Below, piece after piece: positions 16,389-32,893 of a stretch of DNA of 64,000 nt. Within the stretch, counting starts at the first letter, position 1. Each line of letters starts with the position of its first letter. Source of the DNA: Halomonas chromatireducens. GTDB taxonomy: Bacteria > Pseudomonadota > Gammaproteobacteria > Pseudomonadales > Halomonadaceae. Both the position numbers and the translations under genes were made by a program. The notes under the pieces are model-generated. The model was not told where the DNA came from. It was given only the letters and a program-made list of their open reading frames with translations, and searched no databases. Where the stretch lies: positions 1,038,038 through 1,102,037 of the forward strand of contig NZ_CP014226.1 in NCBI RefSeq assembly GCF_001545155.1, written 5' to 3'.

Positions 16389-17144
16389 ATGGCAGAAGCA
16401 ATCGTCGAGACCGCCAACCTGACCAAGAGCTTCAAGGGTTTCACGGCGGTCAATGACATATCCATGCGCGTCGAGGCCGGCACCATTCATGCCATGATCG
16501 GGGCCAATGGAGCAGGCAAGACCACCTGCTTCAATCTGCTCAGCAAGTTCCTGGTACCTACCTCGGGGACTATCCGTTACCAGGGCCAGGACATCACCCG
16601 GCTCAAGCCGGACCAGATCGCCCGACGGGGCATGGTCCGCTCGTTTCAGATATCCGCCGTCTTCGGCAAGCTGACAACCCTGGACAACGTCAAGCTGGCA
16701 CTGCAGCGACAGCGCGGCGAATCCTACGATTTCTGGGGCTCACACCACCGCCTGGATCATCAAGGGCAGCGTGCCATGGCATTGCTCGAAGATGTCGGTC
16801 TCGAGGAGTGGGCCGATACGCCCGCCGCCGAGCTCCCCTATGGGCGCAAGCGTGCGCTGGAACTCGCCACCACCCTGGCACTGGACCCCAAGGTGATGCT
16901 GCTCGATGAGCCGCTCGCCGGCATGGGCACCGAAGACGTGGGGCGAACCGCCGAGCTGATACGCAGCGTTGCCAAGGGCAGAACCGTACTGATGGTGGAA
17001 CACAACCTGGGTGTGGTGGCCGATCTCTGCGACCGCATCACCGTACTGGCCCGCGGCGAGGTACTGGTGGAGGGCGATTACGCCACGGTCTCGCAGGATG
17101 CGCGTGTCATCGAGTCCTATATCGGAGGCGCCCGCCATGACTGA
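16389..17144 (+). CDS. Liv-type ABC transporter ATP-binding protein 1 (LivG-like)
   Basis: A 251-residue ABC ATPase of the branched-chain amino-acid (HAAT) family. Walker A is GANGAGKTT, the signature is the LivG-type LPYGRKRALE instead of LSGGQ, and Walker B is VMLLDEPLAGM. It would energise the LivH/LivM-like channel encoded at 20147-22020. Its stop overlaps the start of the next ATPase gene by 8 bp. This ATPase pair is separated from the rest of transporter 1 by the AraC gene. Confidence 0.85.
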   Translation: MAEAIVETANLTKSFKGFTAVNDISMRVEAGTIHAMIGANGAGKTTCFNLLSKFLVPTSGTIRYQGQDITRLKPDQIARRGMVRSFQISAVFGKLTTLDNVKLALQRQRGESYDFWGSHHRLDHQGQRAMALLEDVGLEEWADTPAAELPYGRKRALELATTLALDPKVMLLDEPLAGMGTEDVGRTAELIRSVAKGRTVLMVEHNLGVVADLCDRITVLARGEVLVEGDYATVSQDARVIESYIGGARHD

Positions 17145-17883
17145 TGCCGCCGCTATCCACTCTTCCGAACCCATGCTGACTCCCGAGCCCATGCTGGCCA
17201 TTCGCGATCTTCATGCCTGGTACGGCGAAAGCCACGTGCTGCATGGTATCGACCTGGAGGTGCCGCCGGGGCAGGTCGTCACCCTTCTGGGCCGTAACGG
17301 TGCCGGCAAGTCGACGACGTTGAAATCGATCATGGGCATCGTGCCACGTCGTCGCGGCAGCATATGCCTGCAGGGCACCGAGACCATTGGCCTGCGTCCT
17401 TTCCATATCGCTCGACACGGTGTGGCCTTCTGCCCCGAGGATCGCGGCATCTACGCCACCCTGGACGTCAAGGAGCATCTGGAACTGCCGAAGCAAGTCG
17501 ATGATGGAGGCTTCAGTACGGAACAGGCTCTGGACCTTTTTCCCAACCTGCGTGAACGGTTGCACAGCCCCGGCACCAAGCTTTCCGGCGGCGAACAGCA
17601 GATGCTTGCCATCGCTCGTTCTCTGCGCACCGGTGCCCCGCTGCTGCTGCTCGACGAGCCCACCGAAGGGTTGGCGCCCAGCATCGTCGAGCAGATCGGC
17701 GACACCATCAAGAAGCTGAAGTCCCAGGGCTACACCATTCTGCTGGTGGAGCAGAATCTGCGCTTCGCCATGGAGGTTGCCGACCAGTTTTATCTGATCG
17801 ACCACGGCCAGGTCGCGGCTCACTATGATCGTGATGGCATCGAGAAGGATATTGACGCGCTGTTGGCGCGGCTCGGCGTCTAG
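17137..17883 (+). CDS. Liv-type ABC transporter ATP-binding protein 2 (LivF-like)
   Basis: A 248-residue ABC ATPase with Walker A GRNGAGKST, signature LSGGEQQMLAIARSL and Walker B LLLLDEPTEGLAP, typical of LivF. The ATG at 17137 overlaps the livG-like gene and was chosen because LivF homology (PMLAIRDLHAWYGESHVLHG) starts shortly after; the frame is open further upstream but non-homologous. It partners the preceding ATPase. Confidence 0.85.
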   Translation: MTDAAAIHSSEPMLTPEPMLAIRDLHAWYGESHVLHGIDLEVPPGQVVTLLGRNGAGKSTTLKSIMGIVPRRRGSICLQGTETIGLRPFHIARHGVAFCPEDRGIYATLDVKEHLELPKQVDDGGFSTEQALDLFPNLRERLHSPGTKLSGGEQQMLAIARSLRTGAPLLLLDEPTEGLAPSIVEQIGDTIKKLKSQGYTILLVEQNLRFAMEVADQFYLIDHGQVAAHYDRDGIEKDIDALLARLGV

Positions 17884-17889
17884 TCGACG

Positions 17890-30919: not shown

Positions 30920-31079
30920 GAGCCTATCGGATTTGATCGTCACGAGAGAGTTGGATTTCGAGACAAGTTTATCGATCTGATGAGGCGAATAGCCCGCTAT
31001 TTAACGAATCAGATCGAATGAAATTGGCCGAAAGACCGGATCTCGCAGTAGATCAGCGTTGAGTCCGACAGGCTCCTAG
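30916..31079. repeat. 164-bp palindromic (MITE-like) element between convergent genes
   Basis: The ends CTAGGAGCCTATCGGA (30916-30931) and TCCGACAGGCTCCTAG (31064-31079) are inverted repeats with one mismatch. Inside, TCGATCTGAT pairs with ATCAGATCGA and AATAGC with GCTATT. The two terminal CTAG sequences supply the TAG stop codons of both flanking convergent genes. A related CTAG(G)GAGCCTGTCGG sequence lies at the pyrB stop (15256-15271). It resembles a non-autonomous repeat that can act as a bidirectional terminator. Confidence 0.65.
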
Positions 31080-32893
31080 AGCAAGCCGTAATGGCGCATC
31101 TTGTTGTAAAGGGTCTTGCGCGCCAAGCCAAGCTCCGCCGCGGTTTCCTGGCGTCGAAAGCGGTTGCGACGCAGGGCATCGAGTATCCATTCCCGCTCGG
31201 TCTCCGGCAGCGCCCCGTTGCTGGAAGCTGCCTGCCAGGACGTCTCGTCCGAACGCGCCGATAACCGAGGTAGGCCCTCCCTTTGACCCGGTGGTTTAGC
31301 GTGCAGAACGGGCAAGTCTCGGACCGAGACCACCTCCCGCTCGCACATCACCACGGCACGCTCCAGCACGTTGCGCAGCTCGCGCACGTTGCCCGGCCAA
31401 TGATGCTGCATCAGGGCCCGGTAGGCCGAGGCGTCCATCTCGCGCACCCGTGGATTCATTTCCCCGGCGATACGCGGCAGCAAATGACGCACCAGCAGCG
31501 GGATGTCCTCGATGCGCTCGCGCAAGGGTGGCAGGGGGATCTCCACCGCATTCAGGCGATAGAAGAGGTCTTCGCGGAACTGGCCCTCGGCAACCATGCG
31601 GCGCAGGGCACGATTGCTGGCGCAGATCAGTCGCGCATCGGTGAAGCGTGGCTCATTGCTGCCCAGCCGTTCGAAGCTACCGTCCTCCAGCACCCGTAAT
31701 AGCTTGGCCTGCAGCGCCAGCTCCAGATCACCGATCTCGTCCAGCATCAGGGTGGTGCCGTGTGCCTGCTCGAAACGCCCGAGCCGGGCCTTGAGGGCGC
31801 CGGTGAAGGCCCCGGCCTCGTGGCCGAACAGTTCGCTTTCCAGCAAATCGCGGGGTATCGCCGCGCAGTTGACCGCCACCATCCGCTGGTGTCGACGCCG
31901 GCTGACCAGGTGGATGGCACGGGCCACGAGCTCCTTGCCGGTGCCGTTCTCGCCCGTTACCAGCACCGTGATATCTCTCTCCGCCACCTTGCGGATCATC
32001 TGCACGACCTCGGTGATGGCAGCCGAGCGACCGATCAGGCCGAACTCGTGGCCATCGCCCAGCCATTCGCTCTTCAGGCTGTGGATGTGGCTCTGCAGCT
32101 GGGCAACGGCCTTGTAGGCCGAGGTGGTTTCCGCCACCGCGGCTTCGAGCGGGATACGGTCGATGGTCGAGCCCCCGATATAGCCGTTGGCGCCGGATAT
32201 CTCCGCCACCTTCTGCGCCTCATCGGGGGTGGTGATTGGGCCGCCTTCGACGGTGCACAGCAGGCCGGGATGACGGCTGCGCACAGCTTCAAACACCGCC
32301 CTGGCGTGTTCCGCAGCCTCGTCCAGGCTGTATCGACTGGGGACACCATCCGCTCCGCCGGCATTCCAGCCATAGTTGATACACAGCAGGTCGACCCCCG
32401 TGTCGGCCATGGCAAGGGCCTCGTCGAGCTGGCGCACATAGGCGCAGGTCTGCAGGCCAGCCTCCCGGGCCAGGCGCATCAGCGCGACTTCACGCTCCAG
32501 CCCCACGCCGGCCCGCTCCAGGCAGGCCCGCATCGGGCCGTCGAAGTGCACTGCCGTGGGAAAGTTGCAGATACCCTGAAAGCCCGCATCGCGCACCTGC
32601 CGCACCAGCGCCTCCAGGTCACAGGCCGGATCGAAGACGCAGGCGCCGAAATAGACGGGCAGCGTGACACGCGTCAGTATCTCGGCGCGGGAGAAGTTCA
32701 TTACCGCACGGTTGTTGTCGGCCAGCGGCAGCATGCAGGAGATTGAGGGGCCGCCCAGCACCCGCAGGCGCCCGGCGTTGAGCGCGAGCAGAAAATCCGC
32801 GCCTCCCTGGGCCGCCGCCTTGGCGGTCATGCCGGTGCCGATGGCGGCTCCCACCAGGAAGCGGCGATTGTCGAGAGTCTCCACCTTGGCCAT
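31076..32893 (-). CDS. Sigma-54-dependent activator with a TIM-barrel (PEP-hydrolase-like) sensory domain
   Basis: A 605-residue fusion. Residues 1-265 are a TIM-br_sig_trns-type barrel (FLVGAAIGTGMTAKAAAQGG; LALNAGRLRVLGG; GYIGGSTIDRIPLE) homologous to the enzyme-like proteins encoded nearby. Residues 285-520 are the AAA+ domain with Walker A GENGTGKE (314-321), the sigma-54-contacting loop GAFTGA (361-366) and Walker B LMLDEIGD. Residues 565-605 form a Fis-type helix-turn-helix (RQETAAELGLARKTLYNKM). No receiver, GAF or PAS domain is present, so the barrel itself must sense. It most likely activates the sigma-54 promoter at 30111-30127. It follows ruvX by 34 bp on the same strand. Confidence 0.85.
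   Translation of the reverse strand: MAKVETLDNRRFLVGAAIGTGMTAKAAAQGGADFLLALNAGRLRVLGGPSISCMLPLADNNRAVMNFSRAEILTRVTLPVYFGACVFDPACDLEALVRQVRDAGFQGICNFPTAVHFDGPMRACLERAGVGLEREVALMRLAREAGLQTCAYVRQLDEALAMADTGVDLLCINYGWNAGGADGVPSRYSLDEAAEHARAVFEAVRSRHPGLLCTVEGGPITTPDEAQKVAEISGANGYIGGSTIDRIPLEAAVAETTSAYKAVAQLQSHIHSLKSEWLGDGHEFGLIGRSAAITEVVQMIRKVAERDITVLVTGENGTGKELVARAIHLVSRRRHQRMVAVNCAAIPRDLLESELFGHEAGAFTGALKARLGRFEQAHGTTLMLDEIGDLELALQAKLLRVLEDGSFERLGSNEPRFTDARLICASNRALRRMVAEGQFREDLFYRLNAVEIPLPPLRERIEDIPLLVRHLLPRIAGEMNPRVREMDASAYRALMQHHWPGNVRELRNVLERAVVMCEREVVSVRDLPVLHAKPPGQREGLPRLSARSDETSWQAASSNGALPETEREWILDALRRNRFRRQETAAELGLARKTLYNKMRHYGLL

Follow-up and report, generated by a model that had tools for sequence, protein, structure and literature searches.

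The pyrB-ruvX site of Halomonas chromatireducens was analysed within a window of 64 kb (positions 1,038,038 to 1,102,037 of NZ_CP014226.1; coordinates below are those of the window), and at 16389-32893 was found to carry two gene cassettes, each with a Liv-type ATP-binding cassette (ABC) importer and a full-length PF09370 barrel (PEP_hydrolase, hereafter PEPH), together with a single Tm-1-like UPF0261 gene. The explanation that we favour, with middling confidence, is a kinase-lyase module of two import-and-activation cassettes, in which UPF0261 would phosphorylate the imported compound and PEPH would cleave it, both chemistry and substrate being proposed from homology and gene context. Four proteins of the stretch matched PF09370 at 62 to 444 bits, against a curated cut-off of 33.8, and Pfam, applied to genes called with a codon model, further named one UPF0261, one SRPBCC, an AraC regulator, a sigma-54 activator and Liv-type ABC genes; the stretch has two Liv-type importers in all. 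A first-pass annotation had claimed this inventory, with four TIM-br_sig_trns relatives, two complete transporters, overlaps tying barrel genes to the SRPBCC and Tm-1-like genes, and an uptake/catabolic grouping; all of these were borne out.

Two import cassettes at the pyrB-ruvX site

Cassette 1 (16389-23319) begins on the plus strand with the ABC ATPases LivG1 (16389-17144; ABC_tran, 100.7 bits; 81-86% to the same gene in the ten Halomonadaceae loci L151 and L153-L161) and LivF1 (17173-17883; ABC_tran, in conserved gene order), followed on the minus strand by an AraC-family regulator (17890-18735; HTH_18 and AraC_binding; 86-91% in the same ten loci). It continues on the plus strand with substrate-binding protein 1 (18774-20072; Peripla_BP_6, 337.5 bits; best PDB relative 3i09, 418 bits), the permeases LivH1 (20141-21034; gene call, UrtB/LivH-type profiles below curated cut-offs) and LivM1 (21037-22020; UrtC/LivM-type profiles below curated cut-offs), PEPH1 (22004-22885; PF09370, 425 bits, enzyme residues present) and the SRPBCC protein (22882-23319; Polyketide_cyc2, 62 bits). 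Cassette 2 runs in the opposite orientation, on the minus strand from 30049 down to 23389: UPF0261 (28829-30049; UPF0261 and UPF0261_C; PDB 3wry, 341 bits, and 9mpy, 196 bits), PEPH2 (27999-28832; PF09370, 444 bits), LivH2 (27070-27927), LivM2 (26099-27073), substrate-binding protein 2 (24855-26102; phmmer matches to PDB 4zpj, 4ey3, 4evs and 4f06, E 4e-27 or better), LivG2 (24098-24841) and LivF2 (23389-24093; gene call and cluster; 90-92% in L151-L156), with LivH2, LivM2 and LivG2 assigned by gene call, cluster and relatives. Entries 4ey3, 4evs and 4f06 are presumably binders of aromatic acids; a literature search for ligands by way of the PDB entries gave, among the matches listed, only unrelated papers.

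Each Liv set comprises one binding protein, two permeases and two ATPases, as expected of a Liv/HAAT ABC importer; for cassette 1 the typing comes from Pfam and NCBIfam, for cassette 2 from joint clustering with the cassette 1 genes and a PDB match. A urea transporter label was rejected: UrtA, UrtB and UrtC profiles matched the Liv genes far below their cut-offs, and urea import is therefore not claimed. PEPH1 and SRPBCC overlap by the four bases ATGA, and UPF0261 and PEPH2 share TTGA. The binding proteins diverge far more than the PEPH enzymes, since they are 25% identical as against 70% for PEPH1 and PEPH2. The gap between SRPBCC and LivF2 measures 69 bases and thus contains no second UPF0261, and a genome-wide profile search gave no PF09370 or UPF0261 match beyond those at the locus. 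For UPF0261 the start at 30049 is most likely; the open reading frame start at 30271 was rejected because a sigma-54 site, described below, sits between them. A PADLOC search for an anti-phage role returned 0 families for UPF0261, PEPH2 and the mini-barrel introduced below.

In a survey of 151 genomes of the family, PF09370 was found in 12, Halomonas chromatireducens itself counted; stretches from the other 11 were compared with six stretches around ruvX from genomes without PF09370. Cassette 1 with its own terminal UPF0261 lies between pyrB and ruvX in L157-L159 and at other sites in L160 and L161. In Billgrantia gudaonensis (L152/L056) the pyrB-ruvX site is occupied by cassette 2 without cassette 1, and the five genomes L151 and L153-L156, which belong to another genus, have cassettes 1 and 2 head to tail with one UPF0261, the PEPH1 match of L156 being split across two frames. 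The Billgrantia loci L054 and L055 have the order of Halomonas chromatireducens as far as their stretches extend. In five of the six stretches without PF09370, ruvX lies beside pyrB, with or without one small gene, and the sixth shows ruvX and no pyrB. Further afield, cassette-1 genes sit behind UPF0261 and the same kind of regulator in the Ectothiorhodospiraceae locus L058, with matches of 85% for binding protein 1 and 82% for PEPH1. Because relatives carry either cassette alone, the single pathway with two transporters that had been claimed earlier was rejected in favour of two parallel cassettes, which in Halomonas chromatireducens would share one UPF0261.

UPF0261 and PEPH as proposed successive enzymes

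In an even draw of 398 Pseudomonadota genomes searched with both profiles, UPF0261 was matched in 38 (37 over the cut-off) and PF09370 in 27, all 27 among the 38. A sample of 40 stretches, which covered all PF09370 places beyond the window and some of those with UPF0261 alone, had 39 UPF0261 genes. PEPH came directly after 29 of them; behind the remaining ten stood a class II aldolase cluster (three), flotillin (two), a CHMI-type isomerase cluster (two), a biotin carrier, an unnamed protein and an opposite-strand gene (one each). The co-occurrence was already known: UPF0261 was reported in 491 (97.4%) of 504 bacterial genomes with TBST proteins, with correlated trees (Sci Rep 2016, PMC5028733), and the present re-test agrees with that figure. 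The published pair, which belongs to the same two families as the locus UPF0261 and PEPH, is fused in plant Tm-1-like proteins, unlike the separate genes of the locus, where one UPF0261 faces two PEPH genes. The passages of PMC5028733 considered here describe no reaction, importers, cassettes or regulators.

The UPF0261 protein contains both family domains (UPF0261 and UPF0261_C), and its predicted model (predicted local distance difference test, pLDDT, 93.8) has the Tm-1-like fold, with template modelling (TM) scores of 0.88 to 3wrw (Tm-1) and 0.58 to 9mpy. The latter entry, titled "Saro_1862, a UPF0261 domain protein from Novosphingobium aromaticivorans with bound acetovanillone", holds a protein about 31% identical to the locus UPF0261 over a full-length alignment, and no PEPH chain is listed in it. 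Acetovanillone catabolism in N. aromaticivorans begins with MarK, called a single-component kinase in a 2026 article (PMC13101465). Saro_1862 is probably MarK, and by homology the locus UPF0261 is a probable small-molecule kinase, the likeness lying in the UPF0261 family and in the proposed ATP-dependent phosphorylation of an imported aromatic. The first-pass statement that neither substrate nor reaction is established for these families is thus out of date as regards UPF0261.

Along the MarK route the next enzymes are a carboxylase and a phosphatase; at the locus PEPH is present instead, and the genes named within 16389-32893, the part of the genome to which this search was confined, include no carboxylase or phosphatase. 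The Hpe/Acv hydroxyphenylethanone pathway follows the same logic of phosphorylating the aromatic first, with carboxylase and phosphatase next, and differs in starting with a two-component kinase, HpeHI or AcvAB (PNAS 2022, PMC9618137). In L018 the genes behind UPF0261 encode a biotin carrier, a biotin carboxylase and a carboxyltransferase, and next comes a member of a cluster in which the scanned protein (L122) is a HAD hydrolase. This gene set resembles the kinase-carboxylase-phosphatase set and by analogy lends independent support to a kinase role. In L023-L025 the gene that UPF0261 overlaps is a class II aldolase, identified by Pfam in L023 and by cluster in the other two. The gene after UPF0261 thus tends to be a C-C bond enzyme, with PEPH most often in that place, which suggests that PEPH may perform a lyase or hydrolase step on the phosphorylated intermediate.

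Residues K35, Y48, H183 and H226 were invariant in a ten-sequence PF09370 alignment that included PEPH1 and PEPH2. Over 108 PEPH enzymes, K35 was found in 107 and H183 and H226 in all, and each near-invariant polar column listed was conserved in at least 103 of the 108 sequences. Mll9387 (PDB 2P10) belongs to the same family as PEPH2 (E 4e-129) and is titled a putative phosphonopyruvate hydrolase; no tested activity was found for Mll9387. In the search with PEPH2, 57 Klebsiella plasmid records appeared, and the 12 plasmid records listed (H49-H60, Klebsiella and E. coli) match just a 39-residue N-terminal PEPH piece.

These residues bear on the first of three alternatives, in which UPF0261 and PEPH form one two-component kinase, UPF0261 binding ATP and PEPH binding and positioning the acceptor, with a phospho-compound trapped in the cell as product for other enzymes. 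In its favour are HpeHI and AcvAB, which start the related acetovanillone pathway (PMC9618137), and the published fusion of the two families in plants and their co-evolution (PMC5028733). We nevertheless consider it unlikely, given that 9MPY holds UPF0261 with acetovanillone and without a listed PEPH chain, that MarK is called single-component, and that the near-invariant polar set of PEPH exceeds what a binding subunit would seem to need.

Regulator, companion mini-barrel and predicted sigma-54 promoter

Divergent from UPF0261 lies a short barrel gene, the mini-barrel (30239-30919, plus strand; PF09370, 62 bits), and beyond it the regulator (31076-32893, minus strand), in which a PEPH-like N-terminal sensor barrel (PF09370, 255 bits) precedes Sigma54_activat, an AAA lid and HTH_8, with GAFTGA and Walker A present as in a sigma-54 activator. 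Sensor-domain relatives were sought in GTDB genomes, and the best 80 of 151 were taken as regulator loci. The mini-barrel was found in 77 of these (L073 and L079, short stretches at contig ends, and L102 are the three without), UPF0261 in 68, PEPH in 68 and all four genes, regulator included, in 65; SRPBCC was present in 39. Of 74 called cases, the mini-barrel and the regulator converge in 51, and in 68 the mini-barrel diverges from the gene on its 5' side. In five Bradyrhizobium loci (L128, L129, L130, L132, L133) both regulator and mini-barrel are present and the stretch contains neither UPF0261 nor PEPH, which makes regulator and mini-barrel the tightest pair. Rhizobial and related loci (L046-L049, L063, L068 and others) repeatedly have Gfo/Idh and cupin genes as a pair alongside the regulator.

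The enzyme residues were largely lost from both kinds of barrel, and neither has the residue set of a PF09370 enzyme. In 85 regulators K35 was retained in 5, and Y48, H183 and H226 in none, whereas D43, R54, N120 and E145 were present in all enzymes and all regulators (108 and 85) and S253 and R257 were also kept in the 85 sensor domains. This pattern fits a sensor that would bind the enzyme's ligand without turnover. In 79 mini-barrels K35, Y48 and H226 were absent throughout and H183 occurred in 34, with N71, D98, N120 and E145 kept in 77 to 79. That the mini-barrel is a broken PEPH copy was rejected because its predicted model has eight strands (pLDDT 93.8) and the gene is widely conserved.

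The UPF0261 operon is preceded by a predicted sigma-54 promoter, TGGCACGCTTACTGCA (30112-30127, minus strand; TGGCACG-N4-CTGCA), which agrees with the -24/-12 consensus at 11 of 12 positions, lies 62 nucleotides before the UPF0261 start and is the sole site scoring 11 or more in the window. Before cassette 1 (16125-16388) the best score was 8 of 12, and no sigma-54 site is therefore assigned there; the 38 bases before binding protein 1 are too short to scan. Scores of at least 11 of 12 were reached by 14 of 68 operons divergent from the mini-barrel as against 4 of 389 control upstream stretches, and by none of the stretches before the mini-barrel (68) or the regulator (81). GAFTGA occurs in 15 of 89 regulators and all 15 face such a promoter (the 14 counted operons and L058, whose site was found separately), while none of the other 54 tested operons, with a regulator lacking GAFTGA, reaches 10. 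A candidate activator site of nested GGGTA...TACCC palindromes lies at 30181-30206. The palindrome GGGTA-N8..17-TACCC, one mismatch allowed, was found in 11 of 14 GAFTGA loci, 4 of 50 others and 10 of 459 controls, figures that are descriptive because the motif was picked after being seen in some of the same loci.

Many of the aligned regulators without GAFTGA also have altered Walker motifs. In those of L007, L119 and L113 Walker A itself is altered, and these may therefore no longer be ATPases. In a quick tree built from 84 sensor domains together with 6 PEPH, which carries a long-branch warning, GAFTGA needs one change (support 84) and is thus treated as one evolutionary contrast; four over-long Azospirillum regulators (L050, L114, L116, L117) were left out of tree and residue counts, and L046 is absent from the tree. 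We infer loss of GAFTGA rather than gain from what we take to be the usual make-up of sigma-54 activators, although the PEPH-rooted tree, in which the GAFTGA group is nested among sequences without it, does not show such a loss. The regulator shares with sigma-54 enhancer-binding proteins an AAA+ domain with GAFTGA, a Fis-type HTH and a -24/-12 target promoter; unlike typical members, it has a copy of a pathway enzyme as sensor and a mini-barrel companion gene, and most of its sampled relatives lack both GAFTGA and promoter.

Importers, neighbouring genes and the nature of the substrate

Binding-protein genes of ABC importers were found in 64 of the 80 regulator loci, Liv-type in 37 and MalE-type in 29. 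Of the neighbourhood conservation that had been put forward as a check, the association of barrels with UPF0261 and with binding proteins therefore stood, and that with Liv-type importers held in some lineages only; since other lineages pair UPF0261-PEPH with MalE-type importers, the class of importer varies. A cluster of 15 LivF-UPF0261 fusion genes (ABC_tran, UPF0261 and UPF0261_C in the one scanned) adds weight to the connection with Liv; the fusion of L007 overlaps PEPH. One long operon in ten loci runs through binding protein, AraC, LivHM, LivG, LivF-UPF0261, PEPH, flotillin, two SRPBCC, molybdenum-hydroxylase subunits and an AAA protein (names from L038). Its flotillin/SPFH protein has about 970 residues (L038:11261-14176 and nine further loci), and the molybdenum hydroxylase beside it has its large subunit split into two genes.

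Neighbours in some relatives include FAH, ring-hydroxylating dioxygenase, molybdenum hydroxylase and CHMI-type genes, and the substrate is probably aromatic or cyclic. Sugar-type neighbours in many relatives speak against an aromatic, and a second alternative, which we judge rather improbable, takes the substrate as a sugar or cyclitol derivative, UPF0261 as a sugar-type kinase and PEPH as a phospho-sugar aldolase. It would account for the MalE-type binding proteins, for PfkB, SDR, HAD and pyruvate kinase neighbours, for L023-L025, where the overlapping UPF0261 and aldolase genes stand beside MalE-type importers, and for a GAPDH-like gene after cassette 2 in Aquisalimonas (L059); the Halomonas chromatireducens locus and its nearest relatives, however, use Liv-type importers, and acetovanillone was the sole UPF0261 ligand encountered. 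Least probable of all is that UPF0261-PEPH is not catabolic and gates the importer, the old "signal transduction" label of the barrel being right, as LivF-UPF0261 fusions, flotillin neighbours and barrels serving as sensor domains might suggest, because the pairs of Pectobacterium L051 and Xenorhabdus L169 have no importer annotated within about 9-10 kb, UPF0261 is found with carboxylase and aldolase genes instead, and residues conserved in PEPH are lost from the sensor copies.

L051 and L169 are both plasmid-borne TetR-UPF0261-PEPH clusters from insect- and nematode-associated enterobacteria. On a Thermomicrobium roseum plasmid (L053), a UPF0261-PEPH-Liv cluster is accompanied by FAH and molybdenum hydroxylase genes and by two kinds of separate genes, PEP/pyruvate-binding and PEP-utilizing, which might together encode a two-component dikinase.

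Other features of the window

Left of pyrB, a fused cytochrome P450 and ferredoxin-type protein (10881-13040) has an IclR regulator and a DctP binding protein as neighbours and may belong to another catabolic unit. The segment 37854-42290 has a GC content of 0.43-0.45, as against 0.61-0.69 to its left, and is possibly acquired DNA; its first open reading frame had no Pfam match at 1e-4.

Discussion

In the kinase-lyase module proposed here, each cassette would import its compound through its own Liv-type importer, and the one UPF0261, with ATP, would phosphorylate a hydroxyl (or enol) of that compound, as its probable homologue MarK does with acetovanillone. The cognate PEPH, as a TIM-barrel lyase or hydrolase using the conserved Lys35, Tyr48, His183 and His226, would break or rearrange a bond in the phosphorylated intermediate, and SRPBCC proteins may bind or process the product. 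The activator would sense a ligand through its barrel copy without the enzyme-only residues and, with the mini-barrel as a possible partner, would fire the promoter at 30112-30127.

More broadly, and tentatively, UPF0261 proteins could be general small-molecule kinases with interchangeable C-C bond enzymes (biotin carboxylase, class II aldolase and, most often, PEPH), a dead lyase copy having been reused, helped by the mini-barrel, as the activator's ligand sensor; a large alphaproteobacterial part of the regulator family would have lost GAFTGA along with the sigma-54 promoter, in some members with changes to the Walker motifs as well, and become another kind of regulator.

Among the matches listed in a literature survey (titles and abstract starts), no description was found of PEPH as partner of a UPF0261 kinase or of this regulator family. 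UPF0261 appears, in passages that give no reaction, in a Brucella mutant screen and in brown-rot wood decay, as does, in a Photorhabdus insect-infection screen, a "PrK012399-domain" gene, taken here to be UPF0261, beside a TIM-br_sig_trns gene. Further papers, not tied to single facts here, are PMC12167813, PMC13406360, PMC12710314, PMC12619356, PMC12790356, PMC2364660, PMC6867892, PMC2422844 and PMC8508112. Apparently new are the sensor barrel without enzyme-only residues, the mini-barrel across the regulator loci, and near-consensus -24/-12 promoters solely with GAFTGA regulators in the target operons tested.

According to PMC5028733, proteins of the UPF0261 and PEP_hydrolase-like kinds are found in bacteria, archaea, fungi and land plants. 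One of the fused proteins of plants is Tm-1, which makes tomato resistant to virus and has an otherwise unknown function. The kinase-lyase reading would make the question of that function directly testable biochemically, and in the regulator family there is a natural series in which to study how activator and promoter become separated from sigma-54. The twin cassettes of Halomonas chromatireducens point to how the widespread, poorly understood UPF0261-PEPH enzyme pair may work.

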